Shown piece by piece: positions 4,154-63,370 of a DNA stretch of 64,000 nt; position 1 is the first letter of the stretch; every line of letters starts with the position of its first letter. Position numbers and translations under genes: made by a program. Origin of the DNA: Atopsyche davidsoni (Eukaryota > Arthropoda > Insecta > Trichoptera > Hydrobiosidae); contig JAILWY010000029.1 of assembly GCA_022113835.1 (NCBI GenBank), positions 4,246,001 through 4,310,000 on the forward strand. Reading direction: 5' to 3'. The notes under the pieces were generated by a model. That model was not told the DNA's origin. It was given only the letters and a program-made list of their open reading frames with translations, and did not search any database.

Positions 4154-4215
4154 CGTAAGAAATCAGGTGTTGCACAGAAAATTGATCCTTACCTGCAAAA
4201 AAAGAAAAAATGACA
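4154..4215 (-). other. Recursive splice site (ratchet point 1) with cryptic RP exon
   Basis: On the minus strand TTTTTTCTTTTTTTGCAG (complement of 4193-4210) is joined directly to GTAAGGATC; junction 4193/4192. TTAATTAAT about 20 nt upstream could serve as branch point. The second donor ACG|GTATGTTTG is at 4154/4153, giving a 39-nt potential RP exon. The acceptor is close to the ideal ratchet consensus of pyrimidines, NCAG, then GTAAG. It lies 19.1 kb beyond ratchet point 2 and is the last of the four in transcription order. Confidence 0.75.
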
Positions 4216-4402
4216 TTAATTAACTAAAATCAAACATATTTTATTTAGAAAAAAACCATACACAGTGTTTGATATTATTTCTCGTCTGTTCATGGGTTTC
4301 TTATGGAGAATAGTGTAGTGGATCATAACTTTAACATTGGCATTTAAATCTGATATTCCTCCCCCAATATTCGAGCCCCGATCTATCCCTTCACAATCAT
4401 TC

Positions 4403-4436
4403 CAAGTCCACTGCTCCGTTACCGATCCTTTACAAA
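4403..4436 (-). repeat. Dispersed repeat fragment
   Basis: The minus strand carries tgtaaaggatcggtaacgga followed by gcagtggactt. Close copies on the plus strand are at 30389-30418 and, more diverged, 14867-14900. At 30 kb the block is followed by the LINE 3'-terminal signature, so it probably belongs to the same LINE family. Confidence 0.5.
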
Positions 4437-4699
4437 CAGTAAAGCATATAACCAATATACACACTTAAAAAGCGTAATAACTCAAAATTACGAAATAAAC
4501 AATGTAGAGGTTCTTTTTCGAGTATGTCTCCTGCTGTATAAAGGCCCCCCCGGCACTCCAGACGCCGGCACTTGTGGCGTCTCGAGTGCCAGATATCGCG
4601 GGGCTTCGGCTTTCAATTCCACGCACGGCACTGTGTAATCCGTCCACCGCAAGCTTCGGCATTATATTTAATATTTGAGGGCGAATTGGAAGGAGAAAG

Positions 4700-4836
4700 T
4701 TAACATGGATGCGGAATATGCGCCAGCGGCTGGAAGTCCGAAGTACAGCCGAACCAATTAGACTGGCCTAGTATGAATATATTCAGTGAGATGGTCGCCG
4801 ACCACTTTTGAGAAGAAGCACCTGTAGAAAAGTAAA
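4700..4836 (+). repeat. LINE 3'-terminal fragment
   Basis: Contains tggatgcggaatatgcgcca and, 75 bp on, attcagtgagatggtcgccg followed by accacttttgagaagaagca. The second part translates as FSEMVA, the usual end of the ORF in this LINE group. Related 3' ends occur at 21590, 28008, 30450, 39480, 48605, 52634, 53522 and 60447. Confidence 0.5.
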
Positions 4837-4839
4837 GTT

Positions 4840-7800
4840 ATTTATTTTTAAATCAGTGGCGTGCAGTCAGTTTGATATTTGAATAAAAAGTTTATTTACA
4901 TTGTCAGTCATATTTGATATGAATTCATTAATAAAACAAGAGTGTGTTTCGCCTCTCCGTCAAAAGCTTTGTCAGCTATTAAAAGCGTGGGGAATTAAAA
5001 TTGCACAGCCGCGAATTCTTTTATAAAAATTAACAATAAACAGAATGGATAAATTAGCAGATGTGAATTCAAAATAACAACCATTATTAAAACCGTTTAT
5101 TTGTATCAAGTGGAATAATTAAGTAAAATTTAATAACGGCATCTGGGCCTAATGAAATCAAATTAGACGGGCGCTCGAAGGCGGCTCTCTAAATATTAAA
5201 ATCGAGTAGTCTCGAAAGCAATTAGCCTTATTATTTACTCGTGCTTTGAAATTAACCCTTAACATTAAATAATAAGGCTTTAATGTGACTCTCTGTGCGA
5301 GGGCAAATATTAAATTCAGAGACGAGCGGTTCGTCGAGTGTTAAATGTGGGAGGAATATATTTTAATTGTTTCTTAAAAGATGATAACAATTTGCTATAC
5401 TAAAAATAGCGTTTCTTAGTATGTGCGATATTGGAGTGAAACTTCTAAAATAGTTATACTAATTTAATTTATTATAATAAAAAGTACATGTTGTATAATA
5501 TAGGGAGAAAACAAAGTTTTTAATAATCGGTTTTAGCAATCTTTGCAAAGCAGAAATTTGGCTAAGCAGCGATCCTGAAGATGAGATGGACAGATGGTGT
5601 AAATATCGAGCGGAGAGGCAGAGAGGCCAGAGTCCAGCAGGCGACGCGTGATGGAGAGTCCTCTGATATTTTATAATAAAAAACGTGCCAGATTTGAGGC
5701 AATTAAGATTACAGCTGATCTTGTTGACGCATTTAGCCGAAAAACAGCTTGCCGACACAAAAATTAAAATAAACATAAAAACCGCGCTTTTTAAATTAAC
5801 TTTTTTAAAAAAAAATACGCTTAAATCAGTTTCTTCCCTGAAATAACAGCGCAGCGGCGTCGTTATGAATTTAACGTTTGAACTAAATTTATTCAAAATA
5901 ACGCAAAAAAAAAAAAAAAAATTTAAATAACCTCCGATATTAAAAGTATTGTAAACAGCGAGAAAATTTTCGCTCTAACTATGCTTTACACGGAGTCATG
6001 AATTTTCAAATATGTTTTAAACGCAATAAAAATTAAATTAAAAATTAATGCACTCGCGGTGGGGGGGGTTTAGGGGTGAGGGGGGGGGTTGTCTAAATTA
6101 AAACAAAGCTAATCTGAAACAACGTTTGGAGTGACAAGGGTTTAAAAAAGTTTGCCCACTGTGTCAACGGACTCCGTGTTCAGCACACACGAGGGGTTGG
6201 ATGACACGGAAATTATACACCTAATATTATACAACCCCATAGCGTTTGCCATAAAAAAAAAAACATGGAGCGAAAAATCCGCCGATTTCTGAAATATACC
6301 GAATGCACGACTCACTCTGGGAATACATAGTTTCGGTGAGGTAATTATTAATTTTTGCGCGCGGGCATTTCTTGATATTGTGGATGTTCAGAACCCCCCT
6401 TCCCCCCCACCCCTTCAAGTATCGGCCGAGTCAGCCTACTTCCGGGAACTCGCCGGATACTTGTTGGCCGAACATTTTCTTTTGAAAGTTAAAGATGAAA
6501 TGGATTCTATAATAATTTTTCACGGAATGCGGAATGAATTTAATTCTCTTCGTTTTGAATTGTTTTAAAGTTTTTTTGCAAGTGAAAGTATTAATGGAAT
6601 TTAGGAGACTTTTTTTTTATAAAATATTTTCATATTTACTTTTGCGTTTAATTTAATTAAGCGTATATTTTAAATGTATAAATAAGGTTGCTCGACAATG
6701 AGCGACAAAGTATAATCTCGGTGTTCTCACCAGGCAAGCGTATTAGACTTGGACGCCGGAGTAAGATTCGCAATTTCATATTCAGCCGGATGCGGAGAAT
6801 TTTATATTTAACGTGTAAATAAACTTCACTATTTTATGCGGCAATACGCCTAATTGGAGCAGCGAGAGAACACTCCGCGATATTATATCCCCGGAGGGGT
6901 GCGCGTCCCGTCGCGTCGGGATTTAGTCGCGAGGCGGCCGTTGCGCAATAGATTGAACAATAATTGCTATAATAAAATTTTAATATATAAAATAAATGTA
7001 CGTTTTGTATAAAAGCCAAAATTGACTGACTGCTCCACTACAAATTAATTTTACTGTGCACGCTTGTATTATGACTGCTTATTGTTGACAGAATTCTAAG
7101 TTTAGACATGTATGTCGAATACATGTGTCGTTAGCGCCATCTATGGGTGAAATACCGAAACTTAGTATTTATATATATTTTTAGTATGTCTACAAATAAC
7201 CTTCGCACGGTTCGCACCTTCGAATCCCTTCGGAGGGCTTTACGACCCGCGACTCTTGCCACTAACGCGGTTACGTGAGGATAAAATAATAATCCGAGGC
7301 ACTAAAAAAATATTTTACTATAGTGCCATTTGGGTAGTGACTTTAAAAGCTGATTCGGGTCAGAGAGTTGACCTTGAACATCCATGGCTTGTTAAGTGTG
7401 GCGAAACTAACAAAGAAACAATGTACTGTGTTTGGTCGTATTATTAAAAATTTTTTTTTAAAAAATGGAAAAAAAAATATTGCTGATATAGAAGAATCGC
7501 ACGCCACTGTGAAAATTGCTTTTGAAGTTAAAAAAAATGTTATAGCAAGTATTTTTTTTAGTAAACAAAATATACATATTAATAAAATAAAAATACATTT
7601 ATTTTAGAAAAAATATATGCTAAAACCAATTATCAGCCTCGTGCGTGTTATAATAGTTTTTTTTTTGTATTATAGGGAGACAATGGGTAAAAAAGATTAC
7701 AATATCTATTTGGGCCATCTGGGTAGGTTGAATTTTTTGCGTTTCCATATCCGCCCATGTAGTTGAAAGATATTCTGTGTTAATTTTTTTTTTTTTTTGG

Positions 7801-8470
7801 GAAACTCACAAAAAAGCAACCGTTTAGGTGAAAATTATTCTGCGTTAAATAAGTTAATTCAACATCAAATGTAATGGCCGCGTAGAAAAAAATTACTCGT
7901 TGCTATCCCCAACTTTATTTACACATTCGTGAAAAATAACCAAGAAAGTATCCTAGTCATTGCAATTAATCATTATTTTATATATATAATATAAATTAGT
8001 TAGTAATGAAATCAAACATCGACTTGGAAAATTCTCAACTTATTTTTGGAACCATAAAAAAAAAAAAAAACTATTGTATAAAAAATCCGCAAAATAAAAC
8101 ACTAAATTATAAGTGAGTTTTATTTTTATCTCGTATCGTTGTTTGATGGTATGTAAGGGAGTAACAGATTAGTAGCGGGTGCGGCGGAGCCTGCGTGGGG
8201 CTCCAGACGTCTTTTTCGGAGCTCGGCAGACAAATAAACGGCCCGGCGTGCCCTCGGGCCGCTCCTCGGAGTGTTAACCGGCTTTTTGTCGGGCTTTTTG
8301 CGCCCAAGGAGTCGGGAATTCGCGACACACCCGTCTGGGGTGGGATGACCTTGACGCGTCGCCGCTCCACCCCCGTTTTCAACCCTCTAGATACAATTTG
8401 GAAGCGGCGAAATTGTGAAGTCAAAAAAAAAAAAATTCTACCCACTGACTGACAACCGAATGGCAAAAAG
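4840..8470. other. Unrecognised intronic DNA
   Basis: AT-rich, with frequent poly(A) and poly(T) tracts and G-runs at 6060-6090. No gene. The only repeated signal is the 11-mer cagtggcgtgc at 4854-4864 and its complement at 7499-7509. Confidence 0.6.
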
Positions 8471-8552
8471 CCAATAGCGTCCTTTTTTGCGTTATTTATT
8501 TCGGCTCAACCGTTAAAAAAAAAAAAAAACACTCTTAAGGGACGCTATTGAC
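8471..8552. repeat. Short inverted repeat
   Basis: CCAATAGCGTCC at 8472 pairs with GGGACGCTATTGA near 8539; arms of about 14 bp surround a 50-bp spacer containing an A-tract. It could be a tiny MITE, but no further copy was seen. Confidence 0.35.
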
Positions 8553-8559
8553 TAATTCC

Positions 8560-10145
8560 AAATGTGGTGAGCCTTAAAATAAGGTTCACGCGGCGGTCAC
8601 CCCAGCGAGGCGGGCGTACTTTTTGCCCTTTCAGCCGGGCTGAGGGGGGAGGGCTTCACCACCCCAGCCACTCCGCCACCCCGCCACCCTGCCACCCCAG
8701 GCTCCCCGCCTTCAGGTCAGCCCAGATAATAAGAGGACACGTCGGCCGGGAGTGATATACTGCGAGAGAATTAACCGGCGATAATGCGCCAGATTACCAG
8801 TGATGAAAGGTTTCGCTTAGTAATAATTCAATGTTATTACGCTTTATCACCGAGGCGACCAATCAACGTGCGATATTAAAAAAAAAAAAAATTAAATAAC
8901 AATACAAGCCAAATACACACAAAGACCAGCAACTGATTAATGAAAAAAAAAAAAAAAAAAAAAAAAAAAACTGTATAATTAATTTCAAAATTAACTAGTA
9001 AATATGACGAACGAAACGAGATCGCATTATCTCTGAGAGCTTTTTAAAAATTCAAATTGCCTTCAAAGAAAAAGCCTGTTAATGCGGACTTGTTGCCGGC
9101 GATATGAACACCGCCGGGGGCGGGGGCTCGCGGGTCCGGACCCCCGCGGTGTAATCCTCAGACAACATTAAAGGGGGGGCGAAAAGTACCTGAAGATGCT
9201 TTAGGGCAGCTCATCAGATTTTCAAAGAATTTAAAAAGATTTATACACTCCATAAAATATTTAAAAAAAAAAAAAATACTTTTATGAAAATGCTTTTGAA
9301 CCACCCCATTCAATATACGTTCGATATCGAGTGTTGAAAACAATCGTTTCGAAATAGTTATAGTTAACAGCCGAAACGCCTTCGTTTGCCTTTCTGAGTG
9401 AAACGCGACACGAAACGAGATCGTAAGTGTTGAAAGCATAATTTTTTACAAAAAATAAATATAATAATAATAATAAAAGACGCGGTTCGATTCGAGAATT
9501 CCGCCGAGGTGAGTAAACAAGCACTCGGCTTTCAAAGAGGCCTCGCATCAAGGTTCTCAGAATGACTCGATCGTGTTTTTATTCTCTAATAAATACGGAC
9601 TTCGCCTATAAATCGCCCCCTCTTGCGGGTAAATGTGATTAATACGAGGGAATATTAAATAATTTAAAAGTATTGCTGAATTAAAAAAAAAAAAAAATGA
9701 CGGGAATTCCGGAAGCCGAACATAAAAGAAACACGAAAGCGAGTCTTTTTCGAAAATACATTTTTAAAAAATAAACATAAAAAAACATATGTTTTTTTAT
9801 AAAAACATAATCAACGCGCGAGATTGACAAAACTTTTGAAAGATCTATTTTTTTTTTTTTTTTTTTTTTTTTTCATCTACAACTATAACAATACCCATGC
9901 TGACTCATATAATAATCATTATGCTCCGTGAGTTTTTATGCAAATATAATTAAATTGGGGCGAGCAGTGCCGGACTGCACGCCACTGGTAATTAAATATG
10001 CCGAGTGCAGTTGACGCGCGGGACTCGACCGGGACCGGAGAGGCCCACATCACGGGGCGAGTGGCAGAGAGCATCCCCGTGAAGAGGCTGACAAAGTTGC
10101 CGGCAAACATCCCGGCCATCTCCAGCGGCTGCATAATGCCTCCCT
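8560..10145. other. Unrecognised intronic DNA with long A/T tracts
   Basis: A pyrimidine-rich patch with a cnccacccn pattern at 8650-8710, a long uninterrupted poly(A) run near 8942-8970 and poly(T) near 9850-9873. No gene or recognised element; gcacgccactg at 9977-9987 is one of the recurring 11-mers. Confidence 0.6.
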
Positions 10146-10152
10146 CCAGCTG

Positions 10153-11102
10153 CACCGAGCGAAAACTTTCCACAGGAGACTCCAGTGAAGGTGGAAAATC
10201 CTTGCAGTTTGATTTTCAGCACATTCAGCAATATGTATAATGAATATTTGATTCATAAGCGTATTGTTATATTTTGGCATTCCAATGTTTCGGTCTCGGT
10301 ACTATGTTCAGAAAATATGTGTGTGAAGAGAATATACCTCCAGCACCGTGACCGAAGCGAAACTTTCCACAAGAGACTCCAGTGAGGGTGTAAAATCCTT
10401 GCAGTTAGATTTTCAGCACATATTTTCTGTTTTCACCTATATGTATATTAAATATTTGATTTTTGGGCGTTTACGTTTCTATTTTGGCATTCCAACGTTT
10501 CGGTCTCGGTACCTGAATCAGGCAGTAGGAAGTACCGTGACCGAAGCAACTTCGCCACGCGAGTGAAAACTTTCCACAAGCGACAAGTAAGGGCTGAAAA
10601 TTCTTGGTGTTTGTTTTTCAGCAGTTTTTATAATACAAATTTGATTCGTAAGCGATATGTTATATTTTGGAATTTCAACGTTTCGGTCTCGGTACTGGGG
10701 TCAGAGAATATGTGTGTGAAGAGAATATGCCTCCAGCACTGTGACCGAATCAACTTCGCCACGCGAGCGAAACTTTCTACAAGCGACGACTAGTAAGGGT
10801 GGAAAATCCTTGCGGTTTGGTTTTCAGAACATATTTTGTTTTCAGCGATAATTATAATGAATATTTGATTCTTGGGTGTTATACAACGTTCTCATATATT
10901 TTGGCAATCCAACGTTTCGGTCTCGGTATGTGAAGAGAATACGCATCCAGTAACGTGACTCGCGAGCGAAAACATTCCACAAGCGAAGGTTATCACAATG
11001 AATATTTCATTTTAGGGTGTTAAACCGAATTTTTTTCAATGTCGGCATTCCAGTGTTTCGGTCTCGGCACCGAAGAAGAGAATATGGTCCCAGTATCGTG
11101 AC
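10153..11102. repeat. Complex tandem repeat, five units of about 140-240 bp
   Basis: Units start near 10153, 10345, 10532, 10738 and 10951. Each contains, in order, gaccgaagcgaaactttcca (variants), ggtggaaaatccttgcagtt, a tttgatt block, attttggcattccaacg and tttcggtctcggta. The last motif recurs near 10288, 10498, 10681, 10915 and 11056. Unit lengths differ through indels and the last unit is most eroded. In the better units the motif TTCGGTCTCGGTAC faces GTACCGTGACCGAA from the next junction, forming an imperfect hairpin. It resembles satellite DNA; I do not recognise the family. Confidence 0.8.
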
Positions 11103-11912
11103 AAATAGCCATCTGTTTTACTAATCTATTAAACATTGTTTATTATATTACCTCAAAATAACTACGCATATATTTTGTACGAATATTGAGTATTACAAAT
11201 CAAACCGGTCTGCTGTGAACAAATATAGATGTTAATATAATCTCTAGCGTATTGAACCATTCAGGCGCGTTGGATTTAAACCAAATTATTTGAAACACAA
11301 TAACAAACCGGGACAAAGCCATTCGCCGGACACTAATTTCCCTTCCGATAATTCAATATAGTCGAGAGCATTTCAGAGCGCACTACACACGCAGCAGCGC
11401 GACCGACGAATTGCACCAAGAAACTGTAAAAACCGACTAAAAATTAGCAACAATTGCTATAACGAATTGTTTTAAGAAATAATATTGAGTATATATAAAT
11501 ATATAAATAAAATAATAAAAAAAAAATTCAAATCATACTTGCATATGAAGATCAAAACGCGTTTGATAAAAAACATATTTATTAAGTAAAAAAATATTTT
11601 TATACCAAAAGCTTTTTAACTGTATGCGTTCATAACATAACCTAAAAATAAAATCAATTTTTTTTTATTATTAATAAAATTGTCATATAGCAGGGGGGCT
11701 AACGCGAAAAAAACGACCGCCCCGTGTGAACAATTCGAGGACGTGCCAAAGCCTCCGACATTGAAATCGCAGGGAGCGATAAAAAAAAAACCGTGTAACC
11801 TGATATTTTATCGAGATCGCGCAACGCGGAAAACGGAGCGGCGAATCGCGGTCGAAACGACATGAATATTTATATGGCCTGGTCTCAAGTTTCGATTTTC
11901 AGCAATGTGATA
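11103..11912. other. Unrecognised intronic DNA
   Basis: AT-rich sequence between the tandem repeat and a piggyBac-like element. No coding signal or repeat recognised. Confidence 0.6.
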
Positions 11913-12340
11913 TTAACACACTAAAGGCGGGGGGCGGGTACTAGTACCCGTTTCGCGGACTGCTGTCTTAATACCTTTTTGAATGTGTTTACTCTAAAAG
12001 CGGCAGTACGTCATTTTACTCGTAAGGTTTACAGCTCGTAATGTTTGTTTAGACTCGTCAACGTTACTTCTACCAATACTGAACAAAGTGACAATGAAGA
12101 AGTGGAGTGGTCAGAGAATGATAATCCTCTAAATTATTGAACAATTTTTAGGACAAAGTGGTGTTGTTGTGATGCCAAGTAATCCACAATGTGTGCATGA
12201 AGTGGTTGAACTTTTTATAGGAAACGATTTATTTGACTACATGCAAATCAAAGAGTGTATAGACTAGATTTCGCACGCGCAATTTTACGCGAATTTTGCC
12301 ACATCAGTTTAGTCAATTTGGTTACCCGCTTAAAATATAA
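11913..12340 (+). mobile_element. piggyBac-like element, decayed
   Basis: Starts with TTAA at 11913 followed by CACACTaAAGGCGGG, the same terminal sequence as the element at 55918-56268, then the perfect palindrome CGGGTACTAGTACCCG at 11935-11950. Inside are broken pieces of a transposase N-terminus, including acidic EEVEWSEND and, in another frame, VVELFIGNDLFDYMQ, a match to the (E/K)LFF(S/T)DEL region of piggyBac transposases. Frameshifts and stops show it is dead. The 3' end is degenerate (acccgcttaaa near 12323) and a hAT MITE sits just beyond it. Confidence 0.65.
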
Positions 12341-12353
12341 ATATAATATAAGC

Positions 12354-12558
12354 CAGGGGTCCCCAACATTTTTGGACCCAAGAGCACATTCTAGAATGCA
12401 GGTCGGGCGGCGGGCACCATTTATTTTTATAGTATAGTCAATAATACATATTTTATTATAAACTTAAATATTTTTTATCGTGGTCGCACAGCGGCGGGCA
12501 CACGTAAAACGGTCGGCGGGCGCCATGGTGCCCACGGGCATAGGGTTGGAGACCACTG
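12354..12558. mobile_element. hAT MITE with perfect target duplication
   Basis: A 205-bp non-autonomous element. Ends are CAGGGGTCCCCAACATTTTT and, read from the other side, CAGTGGTCTCCAACCCTATG. The 8-bp target duplication atataagc is perfect (12346-12353 and 12559-12566). It contains two G/C-rich blocks (cggcgggcac) around an AT-rich centre. No ORF. Confidence 0.88.
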
Positions 12559-12642
12559 ATATAAGCTATTGTGTAACAATAACATTTAATTTATTAACAA
12601 AAATCTCATAATTAACTCGGAGTTGCTAAACGGAAGAAAAAA

Positions 12643-12733
12643 AAATCAAAGAGTGTATAGACTATATTTCATACGAGAATTTTGCCCACTTCGCACACCA
12701 GTTTAGCCAATTTGGCTACCCGCTCAAAGTGTG
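12643..12733 (+). repeat. Second piggyBac-like 3'-end fragment
   Basis: Repeats the block aatcaaagagtgtatagact found at 12247 and continues to ggctacccgctcaaagtgtg, close to the terminus ACCCGCCTAAAGTGTG of the related element. No TTAA follows. It is either a partial duplication of the element end or a separate truncated copy. Confidence 0.55.
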
Positions 12734-12734
12734 G

Positions 12735-14265
12735 AGTGAGCCGCCCTTTAAGAAGTAGTATGGCTGCTGAGCACATACGAGCGCTGCGATTTGTTCGCCG
12801 GAGGGTTCTGCGCGTATCGATAGCCGATAATATGCAAATGTTAGGGGCGGCGTGACGCGCGGGGGTGGCTGGCCCGGCTGGCGGTGACTGAAGGCCGGGA
12901 TGGTCCATCATCTTTACGACGGCGAACTTTTACGGGAATATTGTATTTCCCGCAGATTTTCGGGGTGAGACAGAACGCCGCCTGCCCCTGATGTTGAGAT
13001 CTTCAAGGGGGCCGTTCGAAAAAAGTTATGCTTCAAATATTTATTTTTTGTTATTTTCACCTTTCTTTATGAGTGTAGTTAAACTTCAATGCGGCGCTCG
13101 ATTTTTCTCGTTTAATGAAGTATTGATTTACTCATGATTTACTGTACTCACACTCGTTGTTTAGCCCGAAGTCTGAGGGGTTGAATTGTGAAAAAAATAT
13201 ATATTTAAATAGATGTATGAGTTTACAAGGTTTTCCGGGTCCTTTGTAACACATATCGCTGTTATCTTATTGACACATATTGTTTTTACGGGGACAATGG
13301 GGGAGTTGACTCACGAGGGCCTTCGTCCTGGTTATGGACGAACCTTTCCGAGGGACACGACGGCGTGGCGTGGCAGTGATTTCAACGTTATCGCATCTGC
13401 CCTGCGTGGGATAAACACCAAACCTTCATAAATACCCTTAAAAACACACGGTTTATTTATTATTTTATACTGAACATTAATACCATGCACAAATACTGTA
13501 TATATATCGAATGGTGTATCAGTGATCATAAATGAAAATTGCCTTGATACTTGTAATAAACAGCTGGTAACTAACGTAGTTGCGAACCCTTTGAGGCATT
13601 GTAAGTTATTCCAGGTATTCCTTAAGAGCAATGAAAACTATATATATAAGACGTATTAATTGCTTGTAACACGACTGGAAGAGTAGCTTTACAGTGAAAA
13701 GGCTTCGTAGAAGAGAGATCGTTGCTATATTATCTATTTTGATATTTTTAGTATCCGCTACAATTTATCAGAGTTCCACTAATGAGGAAGGAAATTTCGT
13801 CCATTTTCTCTCGGGGAACACTCCACTTTGAGTGCAAACGCTGCATTATCGTGGAGTATCGCTCCTCCCATGGAAAAATACATTTTCATCGGTATTGCTT
13901 TGATTTGCTCGTTTATTCTGTATAAAAAAAATAAACCTCTTTGACGGAGCTTTCGTGGAAATTCTACATTCAATATCAATTTAAAGAAAAGAAAAACAAA
14001 TTAAGAAATAACGATTTGAAATCTCGTTACGGAATATTATTTTACGTTTTTATCAAAGAAATTCGCTCTGAATTAAAAATTGAAGAGCATTTCGACAAGA
14101 AGGCTAAGCCTGATTTGCAGAGCTGTAAAACCGATATTAAAATTAACGGCGAAATTACGAAAGCTTTTAAACCTACTCTTAAAAAATCCATTTGGTTTTT
14201 TTGAACTGAAGCCTCGCGCATACTGAAAATATAATTTTTAATCGTCTACTGCGCGATCAGGTATC
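12735..14265. other. Unrecognised intronic DNA
   Basis: No gene or known repeat. A GC-rich patch lies at about 12780-12900; the remainder is AT-rich. Confidence 0.6.
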
Positions 14266-14267
14266 TA

Positions 14268-14827
14268 TTAGATGTACCATAAAGTTTGGTCGTTTTTGTA
14301 TAGGCGGTGCAGTACGCACTCAGTTGGGACTCGTCCTTTGAGCTGTACAGTTTGTTTTTTGTGTTGTTTGTCAAAGCAGCCTAGCCTACCTATTAAATCA
14401 CATTTTTTATGGCCTTTTTGTAACAATGGCGGAAGAATTTTCGTTCAAACATTTTTTGCGTTGTTTGATGTTGTATGAGTTTCGTAAAAAAAAAAAAAAA
14501 CTCTGCAACTATTACAATTTTTATGGAGATATAGTGAGTGTTCACATATGCCAGCAATTGTTCAAAAAAATTAATTAAAAAAAAAAAAAAAACACAGTGA
14601 GAAAGCGGCCAAGTACAGCAAATAAAGATTTCCTGAGAAACAAGACCTTTAAAAACATGACCCATGTAAAAACGATCCTCGATGAGTTTTTTTCCACAAG
14701 GGATGAAGACTTCTACAAAAGAGGGGTATTTCGCTTTAGGTGGCAACAAGTCAAAAATAACGAGTAAATGTACGATATTTAATAAAAAAAAAAAAAAAAA
14801 AACGAACGAACTTTCTGGTACACTCAA
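14268..14827 (+). mobile_element. Internally deleted mariner element
   Basis: Inverted ends TTAGATGTACCATAAAGTTT and, from the right, TTGAGTGTACCAGAAAGTTC (about 25 of 31 bases match over the longer alignment). A TA precedes the left end but not the right. Inside, MAEEFSFKHFLRC then LMLYEFRK starts at 14426 and matches the N-terminus of mariner transposases. ILDEFFSTRDEDFYKRG with RWQQV, ending in a stop at 14765, matches the C-terminus. The catalytic core is missing; the element is about 560 bp where an intact mariner is about 1.3 kb. Two poly(A) tracts lie in the deleted middle. Confidence 0.8.
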
Positions 14828-53089: not shown

Positions 53090-53720
53090 ATACCAACAAT
53101 GCCGCAATTACAAACAGATCTAGTCGAGACGCCGTTGCGATTCGAGGAACACGAAGACCCGGCGTAGCAAATGTCTGTGAATAGCACAGCAATAAATCTT
53201 ATATTTTTCGAATTTATATATTTCCAGAGTGACGTCATAACCATATAAATGTAGGGTGAAGCGAGACTGTGGAGTGCGTAGCTACAAGTGTTTTATGTAT
53301 ATTACAAGCATTTATTATTTATTTCAAAGTATAACCAGTGCGGCCCTGCATCGGTGTTACGAGTGACGTCACAGCGTCTTCTAACAATATCGTATTTACA
53401 AACAGATCTTGCCTAGACTACTATATTATGCAATTGCACACGTGTAGATTGTGCATGGCTACCGTGAAGAATATCAGATCTAAACGCCAGGGCTTTGTAA
53501 GGAAAGGATTATACAATAATGTGCTCAGTGAAATGGTCGCTCGATGAAGATGAATCCGTGTAGAGTAAAGCAAAATCAACGGAACTAAAAAAAAAATTGT
53601 ATATAACGAATGCGGCCCTGCGTCGGTGTCGCAGGTACGGAGCGAGCTACGCGGGCGTCTTCCAACAATGCCACAATTACAGACACATCTGTCCGAGACG
53701 CCGTTACAATGGTCCACTTA
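53090..53720. repeat. Local repeat cluster R
   Basis: Three copies of a module: aacaatgccgcaattacaaa with cagatct and gagacgccgttg at 53095; gcggccctgcatcggtgtta with tctaacaatatcgtatttac at 53340; gcggccctgcgtcggtgtcg with tccaacaatgccacaattac at 53611. The first two lie near TGACGTCA palindromes (53230, 53364). The middle copy is followed by the LINE 3'-end block at 53474-53560. Either a SINE-like element or a local duplication; I do not recognise the family. Confidence 0.55.
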
Positions 53721-53724
53721 CACG

Positions 53725-55915
53725 CGGCCGTGTGTGGCGTGTGTGGCGTGTATGCCGTGCAACGCCGTGAATCGACGGCGAGACATCAATCAATATTTGT
53801 ACGCGGCGAGTGGTTTCTTGCTCCGCTCCGCTCCTTATCAGCCTCGTAGCGGTGCTCTTGACCGGCGGGTCTCGTGAGACTTGGAGACTGGCGGTGCAGT
53901 CTGATGAACTGCATGCAGAGCACACTCAATTTTAGGGGACCTATTTACCGGACAAGGTGTGTTAATCATGCCCTGTGCCGTGAGAGTATGTAAAGAAAAG
54001 CATACGCGTAGCACAAATGAAACACGGCTTCCAGAAAACCGCAGAGCATATAATAAATCAAATCAAACATTCCACACAAAAAGGCAAGAAATTTAAATAA
54101 TACCAACAAAAAAAAAAAAAACTAATACGAAATACCAACTACATCGATCGTAAATCAGCTCGGTCATAAAAATAAGCGAAACCTCAAACGATATGGCAAG
54201 GGAAGTAAAAAAAAAAAAAAATGTATAGAATATTCTCGATGAGCGAATCGCAAGACATTGTATTAGAGTCGAGCGAAACCGCGAAAACCAATCACGGGCA
54301 GTGCCTTCCAGGTAGCCGCCATTGTTGGGGCTTAATGAATTTCCTCACCTGTGATGAATCACGGCCGGAGAAAAGAACCCAAAGCCAGCGCCTGAATGGA
54401 CTGTCAGATCTGATATTGATTTCAGCGTTACATACGGGGAAGGCCTCGGCTACCTAGTAATTAGTTTTGATTCTATCAAGGGTCCCCCCTTCGGGGTGAG
54501 GAGATTCGGTTTTAAATCTAATCGGCCACTACTTGCTATTCATATTTCTACTAGAAGGGTTAAAGGCTCAACTAGGAAGGAATGTGATCACAAGATGGCC
54601 TCTGCCTTGTGATGCTTGAAGAGCAGACAACAGAATAGTCGATCGAAGCTAAAAAATAATTTGCAGCGTGATTGGCTTGACACGTTTATATGTGACGAGG
54701 AACTGTGGTGAAGGACCGCTTCTGGGAAGGCGGCTCCAGGTAAGCAAGTGACGCACTACCTGTGTACGGATTCATCTCAATTTTAGCGAGAAACCTTCTC
54801 AGCTGTAACAAATGCTTTAACCTAAAAAAAACTCAAAATAATTTTGCGTTTAAACAACTGTCTTATTTTATGGGTTCTTTGGGATACGTGGCCTATGTCG
54901 TCCCCAAAACAACTCAACCATATTCCATGGTATATAATTTTGACGCAGGGGCTGCGAACCACCGTTTTGGCGCCGCTAAGGCAAGGTAGGGCGAAACCGC
55001 GAACCATGAAATCCCGAATTAGTGTCCGCCCCGGGAGCCGGCGCACAGTGGGGACGAACACGCTGAATTTCGAGCCAAGTCTCTGTTTACATTTTTATGA
55101 TTTTTTTGTTTTTTTTATTTGCATTTCCGCGACCTGGAAGATTGTTGTTTGATGTGCGCTGTGTAATTTAATATTGAATGTTTTGTTATTACATTTTTTT
55201 TTTTTTTTTTTGAGAGCGTTCGTTCCATAAAACTGGAATAGAATTCCGTGTAATCACGTTTTGTAAGCATGGACTTTTAATACGGTATAAAATTCAATTT
55301 GCGTACAACTCATGTTACAAACAAAAGAATGATACATTAATAAACATTTTATAAATATATGCCTTAACATTGTATAAATAATAATGAGGGAAGTATGATG
55401 CACGATTTGAGATGCCAATGTGTAAATTTTGAATGTATAAAATATATATTTTAACACAAAACCAATGAAAAAAACATTAAAACACATTTTCGTATATCAA
55501 AATAATAATCAAAAATTTTAATTGCCTGTAATATCAAAGTTTTTAAGCTATTCGTATTTGTTAATTAAATATTAAATACTACAAAAAACTAGTCATTAAT
55601 AAATGAATTTCTGCTGTGTTCAAATATAAAATTATAAGATATTTGTTCACAAGAAACAATTTAACAATTAATGGTTTTATTTTCAACAAATTTAGAAATT
55701 CAATAAATAGGAAAACAAACGACTTGAAACCTCAATAATGAGAATTCGCTGAGATATTATTTATAGATATTTCCAAGAGCCTCAGATTCAATTTATTTCT
55801 AATAGATATTAAAAACACATCCAAGAATCGAAAATAAAAAAAATAATGGGGATGGGGGGACAAGTAAATGAAATTTTAATTAACAAAATCAATAAAATAT
55901 AGTATATTCAACGCT
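53725..55915. other. Unrecognised DNA
   Basis: No gene. The donor-like caggtaagc near 54737 has no pyrimidine tract before it. Strongly AT-rich from 55150 on. Confidence 0.55.
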
Positions 55916-55917
55916 TA

Positions 55918-56268
55918 TTAACACACTTTAGGCGGGTATTTGAGCGTGCGAAATCTAGTCAAAATAAAAAGTTGAACCACTTCATGCACACTTTACGGAT
56001 TACTTGGCATCACAACAACACCACCTTGTCCTAAAAGTTGTTCAATAATCGGAGGATTATCATTCTCTGACCACTCCACTTCTTCATTGTCACATTGCTC
56101 AGTATTGGTAGAAATAACGTTGACGAGTCCAAAACAAACATTTCGAGCTGTAAACCTAAAGAATAAAACCACCTTCTGCCGCTTTTAGAGTAAACACATT
56201 CAAAAAGGTATTAAGACAGCAGTCCGCGAAACGGGTACTAGTACCCGCCCCGCCTTTTAGTGTGTTAA
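55918..56268 (-). mobile_element. Non-autonomous piggyBac-like element with TTAA duplication
   Basis: TTAA at 55918-55921 and 56265-56268 flank 343 bp. Ends are CACACTTTAGGCGGGT on the left and CACACTAAAAGGCGGG from the right. The palindrome CGGGTACTAGTACCCG is at 56232-56247, near the transposase start side, exactly as in the decayed copy at 11935-11950. On the minus strand the interior encodes an acidic leader containing EEVEWSENDNPPIIEQLLG followed by VVMPSNP and a stop, then jumps to the element end; the catalytic domain is deleted. An internal-deletion derivative of an autonomous element. Confidence 0.85.
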
Positions 56269-56609
56269 TACTTCCACAGAATTCTTTATATATTTTTAAA
56301 TTTTGCTTACAATTATGATAGCTCGCGATTCATTCGTCTAAAATCGGCGCGTCGGGGCGATGGCAGAAACGACCGGTGATTTTGAATATCCCGCCGTGGG
56401 GGCAGGGGCGGCGAATTTATTCAAAGGGTCGTAAAAAAAGAGAGGCAGAGGTGGCGAGGCAAATCCACTCGGCGAAACGACGAAGACAATGCTCATCTGC
56501 ATGGTAAAGGCGGCTGGGGTGGGGGAGGGGGCGCGCCGGACGGCAACGGGGCGCGCGCCCCATTCACCCCCTCCCCCCTAATATACTTCCAAAATATATC
56601 AAATATATA

Positions 56610-57005
56610 TTGAAATTTTCAGGTATACATCGGATATTATTACTTCATAGAATTTTAAAAAAATATTTATTAAAATTCGCATTTTTGCCTATAATATCAT
56701 ACGCATACTCCGATGCTATCCCTAACACGGTTTTTAAAGGGGCCTCACTCCATAATCGATGTTTTTTCATAATATTTCTCGAAAATACTACTGCACCAAT
56801 AAAATTATATACATTCCTTCATCTACGGATATTTTTTTTTTTAATATTGAAGTATATCCATTTGGAGATTATTATGACTGACGGATCTAGAACCCTAAGA
56901 GCATTTACGTGTACTTTTTTTTAATTGGAATAAAAAGATTATATGTAAACCTATGGTAAGGAATTAGTTTCAGGACTTTATTTGACCTTGAAAAAGGACG
57001 TTAAT
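56610..57005. repeat. TTAA-repeat relative, copy G
   Basis: Shares agaaccctaagagc and tttttttaattggaataaaa with 27490-27540, and cgaaaatactactgcaccaa with the end of copies A and F. The 104-codon frame across it has no known match. Confidence 0.5.
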
Positions 57006-57007
57006 CA

Positions 57008-57175
57008 AATAATAAAAAATATTACTAATATGATTATGCACATACATAGAAGATGATTTAAAGAAACTCTCAGAAAAATATCATCGCGATTTGTGTGGGA
57101 TTTGAACCCACATCCCCTGGCTTACATTGCTGGTGTACTAACCCTTGTACTAACGAATCACTTTTACACTCACAC
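57008..57175 (-). repeat. tRNA-derived SINE, reverse copy
   Basis: Minus strand: tRNA-like head with a near-perfect B box GGTTCAAATCC, then cgcgatgatatttttctgag, aaatcatcttctatgtatg and catattagtaat. Same family as 38179-38592. A target gene product is not expected. Confidence 0.8.
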
Positions 57176-57194
57176 TGTACATATGAACCAATAT

Positions 57195-57285
57195 TGTATG
57201 TATGAACTAATGTACCTAAACATATTAGTAATAATATAATAAACCCGTAATGGGTAATAAATACGTATTTGATTGACGTCCAATC
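57195..57285 (+). repeat. SINE tail fragment, opposite orientation
   Basis: aaacatattagtaataatat with aaacccgtaatgggtaataa and atacgtatttgattg, the SINE 3' half on the plus strand. It faces away from the minus-strand copy just to its left, so the two heads meet. Confidence 0.75.
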
Positions 57286-57289
57286 CAAA

Positions 57290-58715
57290 AAATAGACATA
57301 CGTAATATACGACATAAAGAAGTAGACCCATTAGTGTCGTTAAAAAAAACAAATCCAAGTATTTTTCTCTTCGATACTCAAAAATGCTGCAAAACTCCTT
57401 GTAATATTTCTTGAAAATATTCATTTTAAAAAAATTGTTGGCTGGAGCGTTACAGCGGCGCGCGCCGCGGGGGGCGCGTCTGACTCCGGGCGTGTGCCAA
57501 ATCCGTGTTGTCTGTTCCGAGTTGGGATGAATCAGAAAAAATAAAAAAGGCTATTCTACAACTGTGAATGAGGAGCCCTGGCTCGTTAAACCTGAGCTAA
57601 TCAACGTAAAACTTTAGTGCGCGATATTTGAGGTTTATCGCTTTCTCGCAGGCCCGTCTTTAAATATAAACTTTATATCGAATGTACGAAGACGTTTAAT
57701 GCATTATTCAAGACACTCAACGATATTACAATCCAGAAACATATGCAATCACTTAAATGAATTCAACGCAAGCTAGTTATATCGGTTTTATATTAAAAAA
57801 AAAAAATACTAATTTAACGACGACCACGAAGAGACGTGAAGAATTCTTCGATTTATTTTTAACACAAGTGGAATTTTATTAGTAAATTCTAATACCATGA
57901 ATTGACCACGCCACAGATGATGACTATTAAAGTGTTTGAGTGCAGAAGATGAGAGCAGTTTAAAACTCTTTAAAAAAAAACTAAAAAAATGAAAAATGTC
58001 TTCACCACGATTGCGAATATCCGGTCGCAAATATATGACTGCGATGTGAAGAATTAAACGATCTATCAAAGTGTGTGCTAAATTTATGAAACGAATAATA
58101 TTATTGCGCAAAAATTGGGCGAATAAAAAAGGCCACGAGGGCGGCTCGTGTATTACACAAAAGTGGGAGAATTTCAAATCACGTACTTACATAAATAATG
58201 GCTGAGAATTTATTATCGCCATTTAAAATGTTATTAGAATTATCATCGCGACAATGTGAGAGACTCGGCGCGATTAAAATTATTTCACTCGGATGTCGGC
58301 AGGGCTGCCCCCTTAGAGAAGTGGGCTCCGTGGGGCTTGAGGAGCAGAAAATGTTTAGGAGAAGGAGCAGAGATAGCGGTGGATGGTGGATGCGACTTCT
58401 GTTCTGGGGGATGGTTGAAGAACGGGGCTGGTGGAAGGGTGGCAGCCCTGGCGCAGGGGCGGAAGGAATTCAAATGGCTGCCACCCCCGCCGCCCCTGGT
58501 TCGATTCTTCGCGAGGAGTGTCTCGGCGGCGATAAAACACGGAATTCTGGCTACGTGATTCGGGCGGGCGCCAAATGAGAGAAGTTCCCGGATTCCTGGC
58601 CGCGTGATGAAATGTCCCCGGCGCCCCCGGAGCCTCCGCCTCCGCCCTGGGCGGCTCGTTAAAAATATTATTATTTCAAACCGTACTACTATTAAAAAAA
58701 AAAAATTTTTTTAAA
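57290..58715. other. Unrecognised DNA with GC-rich patch
   Basis: GC-rich at about 58270-58660 with overlapping frames on both strands and no known protein. Short CpG-rich block near 57455-57490. Confidence 0.5.
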
Positions 58716-58721
58716 TTACAA

Positions 58722-58955
58722 TACTGAGACCAGGTATGGGACGATTCGCTTCGCTATCGATTTCCGAGTCAACTCCGTACTGATAAAAAATGTGGATTTA
58801 TCATATCAAAAATAAATTTATTACAGAAAAAAAAAATATTACCCATAGAAGAAGGAATGTATCTAACTTTTGGCATTTAAAATTTTTCTATTGGTGCAGA
58901 AGATTTTTCGCAAAAAATTATCAAAAATGGACCCACCCATTAGAGATCTCAGCCC
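58722..58955 (+). repeat. TTAA-repeat relative, copy D
   Basis: gagaccaggtatgggacgat and tcgcttcgctatcgatttcc match the start of copy B; agaagaaggaatgtatctaa and gatttttcgcaaaaaatta match its right part. Right edge gagatctcagcccc is weakly inverted to the left edge. The centre is deleted. Confidence 0.65.
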
Positions 58956-58959
58956 CGTG

Positions 58960-59695
58960 ACAAAATGTAAGTAATCTTGCTGCCATTTCAATATATACGA
59001 ATGAAATATTTATTTATTTATTTCAAGCATTTATTATCCGAAGGAGTGAGACCGTTTGCAAAAGTTTTCCAACTTCAAGGCGGAGGCTTCTATGGAGGCT
59101 GTGGAATTGGCGGTGTTCTCGATGGACTAGTTCTTTTATCATGCAAATGCCTGCGCCTGCTCATCCAGGTCGAGCAGCAAAATGGGACTAGCAGACTGAG
59201 CCAAGTGCACGATGGCTTTAACCATGGGCGAGTCTTAATGGGCCCTGTTCGATTTAGACGTTTGTAAATTCAGCTGTGAGATACATTGATTGGAGTCTTA
59301 ATAAAAATACGAAGCCGAAGTAGTGCTCGTAGGTAACGTGTATTGCTCACATCCGACATCTTGACATAATATTTTAAGTAAACATACAAATGGCGGTCAT
59401 ATTTTTGAATTAAATAATTTATTCATAATGAAGTTGTCACATGAAACAGGTAGCCCTTTTTAATTATTAATATATTTCGAACTTACAAATTAGTGTTACC
59501 CTAAAAGCGAACGTTGCTCCTTTCGTGGCACTCGACCCTGCATATTTTAGAAATATGCAAATGGCAGCCGTCTTTTTTACTTAAAACACGCAGCCATTAA
59601 TACAATTTTCGCATCCATTTCGACACACTGCATAAAAAAAAAAAACTAATGCGAATAGTAGCAGATAATTTTAAATGGGACAAAAATGAGCCCAT
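58960..59695. other. Unrecognised intronic DNA
   Basis: A 96-codon plus-strand frame at 58977-59267 (GGGFYGGCGIGG segment) shows no splice sites or known homology. No repeat recognised. Confidence 0.5.
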
Positions 59696-59699
59696 ATGG

Positions 59700-60070
59700 G
59701 TGAAAAAAGTTTGTTATGCGATTTGTTGGTCGGTTGTGTCGCAACGCGTGTAGGCGGCTTAAGCGACGAAGGGCTAAATCTACGACAAATCATGCATCTT
59801 AGGGGAAATATCATTGCTGAAAAAGCGGTAAAAAAAAAGGCCTTGGGCAGTGTGTTGGTGTGATTTGTCGGTCTGTTGTGTCGCGACGCGTGTAGGCGGC
59901 TTAAGCGACGAAGGACTAAATCTATGATAAATCATGCATCTAAGGCAAAATGATCATTGCGGAAAAAGCAGTAAAAAAGGCCATTGGCAATTTGTTGTAC
60001 GATTTATTGGTCGGTTGTGTCGCGACGCGTATAGGCGGCTTAAGCGACGATGGGTTAAATCTATAAGAGT
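59700..60070. repeat. Tandem repeat, three units of about 140 bp
   Basis: The block gtcggttgtgtcgcaacgcg with tgtaggcggcttaagcgacg occurs near 59729, 59871 and 60010. Between blocks are ctaaatctacgacaaatcat, gcatcttagg and aaaaagcggtaaaaa. GTCGC and GCGAC within each block can pair as a short hairpin. Identity is high between units and the third is truncated. Confidence 0.85.
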
Positions 60071-60074
60071 CAAA

Positions 60075-60440
60075 GGCGATATTTAATGAAGATATTCATC
60101 GTATAAGCGTATGTTTATCAAATTATGTGTTATGCGCGTTATTCTCACAATTCCAGCACACCTCGAATGCTTGCGGTAAAAACGCAGGGGAAATAAAAAA
60201 AAAATAAGGGACGGCTCGTGGCGCCTTCGCACCGTGCATGATGCTTTTATACGGGGATATTAAGAGAGCCACAAAAATGACAGTAAAAAGCGGACGTAAA
60301 GAAGGCCCGCTAACGGGCCGTAGGATTCAATAAACCGTTCGGGAATACATAAATAAACCAGCTGCGGAATACATCAGCCCTTCGTCCGCGATGCAAATGG
60401 CCGCCATCTAATATTCATGCGAGTAATGCGCCGCGCGCCT
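60075..60440. other. Unrecognised DNA
   Basis: No gene or repeat recognised. Confidence 0.55.
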
Positions 60441-60446
60441 TGCTCC

Positions 60447-60522
60447 TTCTTCATCGAGTGCCTCTCCTCAGGTGAGGCAAGTCGTACTCCAGACCTTCCG
60501 CGCAAATTCCGCATCCATGTTT
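60447..60522 (-). repeat. LINE 3'-terminal fragment
   Basis: The minus strand carries tggatgcggaatttgcgcgg and, 50 bp on, tgaggagaggcactcgatga with agaagg, matching 52634-52732 and 4705-4830. Confidence 0.5.
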
Positions 60523-60792
60523 CCACTTTTAATTTTGTCATTTTCACCGTCTGGAATATATTTCGTTAGTAAATATCGCTTCAATGGGGAAGCCCCGCTG
60601 CACGCGGCCCGCGCTCTAACGCGGGCGGATCGCACGAATTCAATTTCACGATAGGTAATCCAAAATCCAATATGCATTTTTCTAGCCGCTCTATGGAGTA
60701 ATATAAAACGTATTTGCGCAGACATAGACTATACGCGTACTATATATATATATACATATATACTACTTAAAAAATATTTACTAAGCTTAAAT

Positions 60793-60972
60793 GTCTCAGT
60801 TCTTCTTTATGGAGTCAAAGCTTTGACACTCAAGACAGCAGCTACTATGCGAAGAATAGAAACGGTTAAAATGTGGCTGTATAGAGGAATCCTTAAAGCA
60901 CCATGGGTTGACTGCGTCGTCACAAATGAGAGAGTCTTGCACATAATGCGCATATTAAAAGGTTACTCTTGA
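60793..60972 (+). pseudogene. LINE reverse-transcriptase C-terminal fragment
   Basis: Sixty codons open without interruption to a stop at 60970: VSVLLYGVKALTLKTAATMR, then RIETVKMWLYRGILKAPWVD, then CVVTNERVLHIMRILKG. This is the conserved stretch after the RT catalytic core in insect endonuclease/RT LINEs (VLLYGCEAWTL ... WxYRRxLKIxWxDxVTNEEVL). There is no catalytic motif in the piece and no 5' part. The best preserved copy of this family here; shorter relatives are at 3051, 21590 and 43960. Confidence 0.85.
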
Positions 60973-60974
60973 CG

Positions 60975-61730
60975 TTGGTAAAGAAACGTAATCGAGGAAG
61001 AATAAGAAACATTAAAAAAATATTACTAGAACTCTTTCTACTCCGTTGGCGACTAGAGGTCGCCATAGTGCAGCTTTTATTGTTTACCCTATAAGAAGTC
61101 TAGGTGAGTACTAGATCAGGCATAAACTATTTTTGTCAGTTTTGCAAAGTAATTGCTGCCATTCGGATGTATTCACATTGTTAAATTTAAAAAAAAAAGT
61201 CTGGAGTTCAAAGGGTTAAAATCTTCATAAGATTCATGTCGAGCACATACCAAGTCCGGATTGCCGACAATCATTCTCTTTTGAAGAAGCAAATAAATTG
61301 TTAACGATAAAATAATCGATACGGTTTAACCGGCAGGAAAATTAAAAAATCACCAACGATTTCCAGAAGATATCAAAAAGCGAAACTTAAGTAGCAAGAA
61401 AATTAAAAAATCACATCTAATAATAATGCTAAAAAAAAAAATAATAATTTCCAGAAGATATCAAGAAGCGAATTAGCGTGAGCAAGCCAAGGCAGGAAGT
61501 CGGGAATTAGGAGGGCGAAAAAAAATCCATGTCATCGGAAATTCGCGACATCCGTCCCCGGCGCGGGGTAATGGCGATTCTCCTCTCCCCGGCTCCTAAT
61601 CGATGTTAAATCTTTAAAACTACATCGAAAGTTTAATGCGAAATCGGTGTTTGACTGGGGGTAGCCACCCCCCGAGTAACACAGGAATAACACTGGGGCG
61701 TCTGATGAACCTCCAGCCGTTCAGGATGCT
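60975..61730. other. Unrecognised DNA
   Basis: Two similar lines, ccagaagatatcaaaaagcg at about 61361 and ccagaagatatcaagaagcg at about 61451, form a 90-bp direct repeat. No gene. Confidence 0.55.
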
Positions 61731-61737
61731 TGTATAC

Positions 61738-61941
61738 CATAGGTTCCCAACGGGGGCGGTGGCGGGTCCAAGGGAAAATTGGGGGCGTTATGAAACACCT
61801 AATAACTAATTTTTAATATGTGATTGTTAATAAATAATATACAGAAATAAAATTGGTATAAAGTGTTATGTCAAATGGGGGCGTTGGAATTTTTATTTCT
61901 TGTCAAGGAGGCGGTGGTCAATAAAAGGTTGGGAGCCTATG
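61738..61941. mobile_element. hAT MITE with perfect target duplication
   Basis: 204 bp, ends CATAGGTTCCCAAC and, from the right, CATAGGCTCCCAAC. The target duplication ttgtatac is perfect (61730-61737 and 61942-61949). The ends resemble those of the hAT elements at 29475 and 36040. gggggcgtt occurs twice inside. No ORF. Confidence 0.9.
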
Positions 61942-61949
61942 TTGTATAC

Positions 61950-63045
61950 GTTCGATTTCTTATATAATTGCTATGACTTCGTTTTACTAAGAATATTGTG
62001 ACTTGTATTGAATTTTACTTTAAGTAACATGTGACTAGAGCGTTTGGTGTATATTATCAATCTAAATTGTGTAGGCTGTGTGATCGTTTATATTTTGACA
62101 TTAGACAGCATGTATAACGGATATCCTCATTATGTTTAAAAAATACACACGCCTGGGTCGCGATGAAAATATTATTTTTATATTTATAGGGTTAAGTTTT
62201 GATATTAAGAGCCAGACGCTTTCTGCCCCCTTTGTTTCAGAAATTAACTATAAACAAATCAGCCTTGCATACATTGCATGCTATCACTAATATATATAAT
62301 TTGATTAAAATAATAATTGAATATTTTATTCATGTCCAATGTTGAAAACATAACGTTTTAATAGTAAATAAAAACACTATGAATATTTTTTTTAAGTTTA
62401 AAAATTTGTATAACTCACTAAGTACTAGAAGAAATTTTCCTCTCAAATATATGATAATACAGCAAAAAAAGCGAAAGGAATATTCGCGTAAATCATTGTT
62501 ATTGAAATATGAAAAGAAGCGACATTTTCTTTTCTTAATAACGATAATTAGCGTTAAATATTTCTCGTATATTTTTTCCTTTTTTTTTTCATTTTTATTG
62601 GAACCGTTCCAACTTATGACTATGCAAATCATAATAAAAATATACACTGTAGAATAATGCCATTATCTTAGGTGGGCATACTCCATATTAAAATAGCCCA
62701 GTGGCTACGAGATTACGACCTATATTGTATTATTTTTTGATTGTATATTTTTTTGGCACGCGCACCGGGCGTTGCGACCCCTGGAAGTTGTCTAATCACT
62801 GTTTGCAGTAAAATGTCGACAGTTAAACGTAGGACGGAAAGGGGTGGATTCGCAGGGGGTGAATTAACGTGAAGCGACGGTAGCGTATCTGACGAAGATC
62901 CACCGAAAGCGAGAAGTCATTCTGTAAATTCTAATGCAAAAAAAAAACGTGCAAGTTCACTACCATCCATTTTAGACTTTGTACTTGCTAAGGAATACAG
63001 TATAATAAAAAAAAAACAGCTGATTTGACACTCAGTACTTCTAAC
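61950..63045. other. Unrecognised DNA with hAT-end-like sequence
   Basis: At about 62766-62782 gggcgttgcgacccctg has the form of a right hAT end (CAGGGGTCGCAACGCCC in reverse) without a matching left end. A short plus-strand stretch from 62813 (MSTVKRRTERGGFAGG, then after a stop SDEDPPKARSHSV) is basic/acidic and could be a transposase leader; unproven. Confidence 0.4.
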
Positions 63046-63048
63046 CTA

Positions 63049-63110
63049 ACCCACTGCACTATTTTCACCGTAGAAAACCATGAACACTGGTTCATGATGA
63101 AGATAGTGTT
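63049..63110 (+). repeat. LINE 3'-terminal scrap
   Basis: cccactgcactattttcacc and gtagaaaaccatgaacac with tgatgaag match the 39440-39500 block in part. Confidence 0.35.
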
Positions 63111-63150
63111 TTTTATTTTTTAAATAATTAAAATAATGAAATAAATCCTA

Positions 63151-63255
63151 TAAGGGGGCTGGGACCAGGAATGTATCCATTTTCGAGGTTTTTTGATAAT
63201 ATAAGAAATAAAAAAATATCCGTAGACGAAGGAATGTATCTAACTTTTGCCATCA
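63151..63255 (+). repeat. TTAA-repeat relative, copy E
   Basis: taagggggctgggaccagga, tcgaggttttttgataat and gacgaaggaatgtatctaac match the outer parts of copies A-D with the interior deleted. It lies about 85 bp from ratchet point 4. Confidence 0.55.
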
Positions 63256-63304
63256 CTATCGCATACGTATTAAAAATAATAATACATAAAAAAAGTAAAC
63301 ATAC

Positions 63305-63370
63305 CAACGCGAAACAGCAAAAAAAAAAACCATGGTTCTTACCTGAAACAAGAGAAAATAAATTATTAAT
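63305..63370 (-). other. Recursive splice site (ratchet point 4) with cryptic RP exon
   Basis: On the minus strand a pyrimidine tract (complement of 63346-63362, reading TTTTCTCTTGTTTCAG) abuts the donor GTAAGAAC with no nucleotide between AG and GT; the junction is 63343/63342. TTAAT-type sequence suited to a branch point lies about 20-30 nt upstream. A second donor, G|GTATGTTT, follows at 63305/63304 and bounds a 38-nt potential RP exon (63342-63305). Juxtaposed acceptor and donor is the defining feature of a zero-length exon that is spliced to and then removed. First of the four in transcription order. The sequence match is direct; use in vivo is inferred. Confidence 0.72.

Follow-up and report, generated by a model that had tools for sequence, protein, structure and literature searches.

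The window analysed here is a stretch of 64,000 nucleotides (nt) from the caddisfly Atopsyche davidsoni, numbered 1..64000 and corresponding to C29:4246001-4310000 (contig JAILWY010000029.1, C29 below) in an assembly of 370.7 Mb. The entire window (1..64000, minus strand) is part of one intron of 183,618 nt, which runs on the minus strand from a GTGAGT donor at C29:4375051 down to a GCAG acceptor at 4191434, in a gene predicted from its homologues to encode a membrane protein with a PRRT3/4 domain. Four sites in the window and three beyond it have an acceptor joined directly to a donor (AG|GTAAG), which is the arrangement of the ratchet points of recursive splicing. The removal of giant introns by recursive splicing has been documented mainly in flies.

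The flanks were scanned for 100 kb on each side of the window, giving a region of 264 kb in all. The boundaries of the intron were located by tblastn with three insect homologues: the upstream exon (...MSETLQRAYANSRGPSPGAKKLLNIPEDG, with the end sequence ...GAGGATGGAG) ends at 4375052, the next exon starts at 4191433, and the phases match. An earlier note, made from the window alone, had proposed one very large minus-strand intron, 64 kb without exons and bounding exons to be sought in the flanks. Both bounding exons were indeed found by homology outside the window, and they enclose one phase-consistent intron. As far as tested, the window is intronic; its sole coding homology is a mariner transposase fragment, and a mariner-type transposase domain was also the one match when 30 of the 317 open reading frames (ORFs) of at least 60 amino acids in the window were scanned with Pfam. 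Between the bounding exons, the only tblastn matches were three weak ones on the plus strand (E 0.06, 0.57 and 0.97), which were taken as chance.

Downstream of the intron, an open frame of 929 residues (C29:4182057-4184843) has matches among insect proteins, several bearing the name Proline-rich transmembrane protein 3/4 domain-containing. Among the best 120 of 188 matches, the value was 81% to one protein, 77% to that of Arctopsyche grandis, a hydropsychid caddisfly, and about 57-65% to most Lepidoptera, and most of these homologues carry PF25987. No counterpart of the first 168 residues of the Arctopsyche model was found in the 264-kb region, so the gene may have further 5' exons.

In the window, four sites on the minus strand consist of a polypyrimidine tract and CAG joined to GTAAG. 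These are ratchet points 3, 4, 5 and 6 of the seven, at 63338..63372, 42466..42500, 23270..23304 and 4188..4222, with the first base after the AG at 63342, 42470, 23274 and 4192, respectively. The four YAG|GTAAG junctions described in the earlier note are therefore exactly where it had placed them, each behind a pyrimidine-rich tract, and the intervals that it gave as 20.9, 19.2 and 19.1 kb were measured as 20,872, 19,196 and 19,082 nt. Of the YAGGTAAG motifs in the window, four are on the minus strand, all with 15-17 pyrimidines in the preceding 20 nt, and two are on the plus strand, with only 8 and 10. Based on approximate splice-site matrices, the joint acceptor and donor scores of the four sites are 14.7, 13.1, 11.9 and 11.8, and the best site on the plus strand reaches 7.6, in agreement with the note, which saw no equally good site on that strand. 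As a candidate for further support, the branch-point motif YTAAY was found 24-31 nt upstream of three of the four window sites, but it was rejected, as 24% of 40-nt stretches contain it by chance.

The combination of a strong acceptor and a donor is rare in sequence of this composition. When 60 windows were simulated for each Markov order, no site as good as the fourth arose at orders 1, 2 and 4, and such a site was present in a single window at order 5. Among the 2608 AG dinucleotides scanned on the minus strand, only four are directly followed by GTAAG, and all of these belong to the top nine acceptors (P = 6.6e-11 with this threshold, which was picked post hoc; P = 2.1e-8 for the top 33). 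The near-equality of the three window intervals has a probability of about 0.002 for four uniformly placed points, in a test that was also devised post hoc. No repeat common to the sites was found when they were compared by blastn with the window and the wider region, which gave only short or low-complexity partial matches. When the window is divided into 32 two-kb bins, 28 of them have more T than A on the minus strand and 25 have more C than G, which is in keeping with transcription of this strand, without proving it. A T-rich strand also favours polypyrimidine tracts, and motifs of the GTAAGG class, discussed below, are not enriched in the genome; both would fit an origin of the motifs by chance or from a repeat. 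Such an origin is nevertheless extremely improbable, given that the simulations preserve composition up to order 5, that linked downstream donors accompany the sites, that the sites continue into both flanks and that they share no repeat.

The earlier note had also pointed to the flanking sequence as the place to look for further sites, and three more were found there, on the same strand and in both flanks. All are AG|GTAAG junctions on the minus strand: ratchet point 1 at C29:4349933 (window coordinate 103933), ratchet point 2 at C29:4329914 (window coordinate 83914) and ratchet point 7 at C29:4222879 (window coordinate -23121). In the whole intron, AG|GTAAG with an acceptor score of at least 7 occurs seven times on the sense strand and not once on the antisense strand. 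Likewise, no plus-strand AG|GTAAG in the 264 kb passes this threshold; that strand has only three AG|GTGAG, the acceptors of which are weak. Two minus-strand positions, C29:4234838 and 4241746, have identical AG|GTGAGT contexts with weak acceptors, 6.9 kb apart, and are apparently a local duplication.

The seven sites divide the intron into segments of 25.1, 20.0, 20.6, 20.9, 19.2, 19.1, 27.3 and 31.4 kb. The coefficient of variation (CV) over the eight segments is 0.185, which has a probability of 4.5e-5 under uniform placement of seven points, and a shortest segment of this length has a probability of 2.5e-6. Both tests were devised post hoc and take in the AG|GTAAG sites only, leaving out an AG|GTGAGT at C29:4321445. 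The earlier note had called the regular step length unusual in itself. This part of it needs qualifying, as evenness is already known: fly recursive sites likewise split introns into similar chunks (PMC6110457).

A second hallmark, absent from the earlier note, is a weaker donor 38-55 nt downstream of each of the seven sites. According to PMC8605326, a cryptic recursive-splicing exon (RS-exon) of about 50 nt starts at fly ratchet points, and the stronger donor of the site outcompetes that of the exon. Four such cryptic RS-exons can be predicted on the minus strand of the window. The first, at ratchet point 3 (63299..63342 with its donor), would be 38 nt long (63305-63342), with the donor ttg|GTATGT at 63299-63304 scoring 2.14 against 6.97 for the ratchet donor. 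That of ratchet point 4 (42419..42470) would be 46 nt (42425-42470), with ttg|GTACGT at 42419-42424 (2.16 against 6.97), that of ratchet point 5 (23218..23274) 51 nt (23224-23274), with tcg|GTATGT at 23218-23223 (2.39 against 7.59), and that of ratchet point 6 (4148..4192) 39 nt (4154-4192), with acg|GTATGT at 4148-4153 (3.99 against 7.59). Over all seven sites, the RS-exon donors are GTATGN in five cases, GTACGT in one and GTAAGT in one, and with the approximate matrix the ratchet donor outscores the RS-exon donor at every site.

The presence of these donors differs clearly from the background. A donor score of at least 2 within 30-80 nt was found at six of the seven sites of the intron against 8.7% of control positions, and at 81-131 nt at one of the seven. 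The motif GGTAYGT occurs 10 times on the minus strand of the window, and one is found 30-80 nt downstream of 0.8% of positions. Moreover, the window has three copies of the 9-mer GGTATGTTT on its minus strand, all of them at these RS-exon donors, and none on its plus strand.

Some of the RS-exons might be expressed as alternative micro-exons, like m1 and m2 of Ubx, and serve protein or isoform diversity besides or instead of intron removal. None of the seven contains a stop codon in the reading frame that the upstream exon dictates, although this may be chance, and the lengths of two (51 and 39 nt) are divisible by three; the Ubx micro-exons are 51 nt long and recursively spliced (PMC8605326). 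However, inclusion would shift the frame in the other five, and a ratchet donor that outscores the exon donor, as here at all seven sites, goes with skipping in flies (PMC8605326). Comparison with three homologous proteins by tblastn also gave no convincing extra segment at this position. We regard expression as micro-exons as unlikely.

We consider it very probable that the four window sites are genuine ratchet points of recursive splicing, numbers 3-6 of seven, in a 183.6-kb intron of the PRRT3/4-domain gene. The ratchet-point interpretation of the earlier note gains support from the strength of the motifs, their strand and even spacing, the run of seven sites, the RS-exon donors, the intron boundaries and the excess of the motif in the genome. 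The use of the sites in RNA, the order of steps and the competition between donors are modelled on flies. Once a site is transcribed, a cryptic exon of 38-55 nt would be recognised between the strong acceptor and the weak downstream donor. Joining of the upstream exon to the site would recreate exon|GTAAG, a donor stronger than that of the cryptic exon; the seven site sequences predicted as joined to the end of the upstream exon are GTAAGAAATT, GTAAGAAATC, GTAAGAACCA, GTAAGACACT, GTAAGGCTTC, GTAAGGATCA and GTAAGCTTCA. Splicing of the recreated donor to the following site, about 20 kb further along, would then remove the cryptic exon together with that piece. After seven of these rounds, a last splicing step to the downstream coding exon would complete the removal of the intron in eight pieces.

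A different use of the same motifs would be as acceptors or decoys for another transcript, either from an alternative first exon or from an intronic non-coding RNA, rather than as steps in the removal of the whole intron. Two of five homologues (P0005 and P0007) start with a different N-terminus, which is attached to the same coding exon, so there may be an internal first exon. This lepidopteran alternative N-terminus was sought in the 264 kb, with no convincing match, the best being a weak one (E 0.022) at about 22620-22661 of the window on the minus strand. Against such a transcript, the sites span most of the intron in similar steps, all are on the sense strand, and the first lies 25.1 kb from the upstream donor. 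We regard this explanation as very unlikely compared with the stepwise removal of the intron.

The analysis of the whole assembly showed that the motif is not limited to this intron. The pattern YYYYYYYYNYAGGTAAG was counted 307 times and its reverse 93 times, and the excess is present when the next base is A (68 against 16), C (84 against 17) or T (132 against 35). The earlier note had named, as a refuting result, a genome-wide scan in which such sites are as frequent in random intergenic DNA; the comparison made here, with the reversed pattern, gave an excess for the motif as a whole, but not for the GTAAGG subtype. The relations between neighbouring sites were examined on contigs 1-22, which were covered completely (230 sites); over the whole assembly, 100 of the 132 sites of the T class were covered. 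On these contigs all 31 neighbouring pairs at distances of up to 50 kb are on the same strand, and up to 100 kb there are 46 pairs on the same strand and four on opposite strands. One of the 31 pairs, C11:6838011 and C11:6838215, consists of identical ratchet-type motifs 204 bp apart and is probably a tandem repeat.

Downstream donors were also found outside this intron. We read 28 other sites, 8 loci and 20 taken from same-strand neighbours, a choice that favours real sites. A donor score of at least 2 was present at 30-80 nt in 18 of the 28, against 8.7% of control positions, and at 81-131 nt in 6 of the 28; the ratchet donor was stronger than the RS-exon donor in all 28 (approximate matrix). 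The joint pattern TTTNCAGGTAAG...GGTAYGT, which was modelled on the sites of the host intron, has 12 occurrences in the genome, including three in that intron, and its reverse has none.

Several results weigh against the interpretation of the sites as ratchet points. The best combined splice score of the intron belongs to none of the seven sites but to the AG|GTGAGT at C29:4321445 (window coordinate 75445, minus strand; acceptor 11.94, donor 8.96), the use of which would disrupt the even spacing. No plausible RS-exon donor was found within 120 nt of it, and this site offers a natural test of the requirement for exon definition in recursive splicing. At C29:4349933 the donor at +55 is very weak (0.96), and one with a better score (2.50) is located at +104. 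The GTAAGG class, which includes two of the seven sites of the intron, shows no enrichment in the genome (23 occurrences, against 25 of the reversed pattern). All splice scores come from approximate matrices that were not trained. Finally, PF25987 was not reported by the Pfam scan of the frame of the downstream exon, and the label of the gene rests on its homologues.

The spacing could also reflect a ruler, by which neighbouring ratchet points within an intron would keep a distance of at least about 17-20 kb in this genome, roughly twice the fly step. The basis for this proposal, which we put forward only tentatively and hold to be less probable than not, is that five successive steps in the host intron measure 19.1-20.9 kb. 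Among the same-strand neighbours within 34 kb on contigs 1-22 (n = 24), three are separated by less than 17 kb and the other 21 by 17-34 kb, the thresholds of 17 and 34 kb having been picked after viewing the site list. The strict genome-wide pattern catches only two of the seven sites of the host intron, so missed sites must lengthen the listed gaps. A ruler, if true, would suggest a selected step length, set by the speed of transcription and splicing or scaling with intron size.

Several other features were observed in the window and its neighbourhood. The mariner-type transposase fragment (47408-47770, plus strand) is antisense to the host intron; it matches the Mos1 transposase in PDB sequences (E 4.5e-35), its Pfam DDE_3 match is below the curated cut-off, and no relative was found among viral contigs. 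The fragment 37691-38062 had no relative in a protein search. Two tRNA-like genes were detected with ARAGORN and the Rfam tRNA model, Ala TGC at 38433-38506 (plus), which sits inside a repeated unit, and Thr TGT at 57086-57159 (minus); they are perhaps tRNA-derived short repeats. The window also contains an inverted repeat at 40558-40983, with 164-nt arms that are 91% complementary and 98 nt between them, and tandem repeats at 59710-60064 (142-bp unit, 2.5 copies) and 10154-10832 (unit of about 200 bp, about four copies). The observed/expected ratio of CpG over 1-64000 is 1.33. A hymenopteran host, which this ratio had suggested, was rejected because the flanking exon matched proteins of caddisflies and moths. 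Upstream of the host gene, at C29:4386630-4395544 (minus), there are open frames rich in C2H2 zinc fingers, one of which was scanned with Pfam and the others judged by eye. An open frame at C29:4160943-4161200 (plus), for which Pfam found no family, resembles a factor of the MITF/TFEB type.

The sites resemble the intronic ratchet points of Drosophila described for kuz, Bx and Ten-m, as presented in PMC8605326 and PMC6110457, in having a strong acceptor joined to a strong donor on the sense strand of a long intron, in their even placement and in the short RS-exon with a weaker donor. They differ in their steps, which are 19-31 kb here and typically 9-15 kb in flies (PMC6110457). In introns longer than 50 kb, PMC2773006 gives 2.2 sites per 100 kb for fly, 1.0 for mosquito, 0.8 for beetle and 0.5 for bee, with 0 to 0.12 on the complementary strands of these four insects; the host intron, with seven sites in 183.6 kb, has 3.8 per 100 kb, a value obtained with a threshold different from that of PMC2773006. 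Like the micro-exons m1 and m2 of Drosophila Ubx, the predicted RS-exons are short exons starting with a donor in a very long intron; unlike these, which enter some mRNAs, five of the seven would shift the frame. By analogy with mammalian RS-exons, they would depend on exon definition and on a rebuilt donor that competes with the RS-exon donor (PMC8605326). For mammals, the same paper cites only nine fully suppressed sites in long introns, whereas here hundreds of motifs and same-strand runs were found.

Recursive splicing in insects and the even placement of sites are known already; the steps here are about twice as long as those of the fly. No paper containing both 'recursive splicing' and 'Trichoptera' was found in a search that left most subscription journals outside. 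If confirmed, the sites would extend recursive splicing, with the same cryptic-exon anatomy, to a caddisfly, and this anatomy would then be old within insects. An intron with seven sites and nearly equal steps of about 20 kb would also make the control of step length testable across insects of differing intron size.

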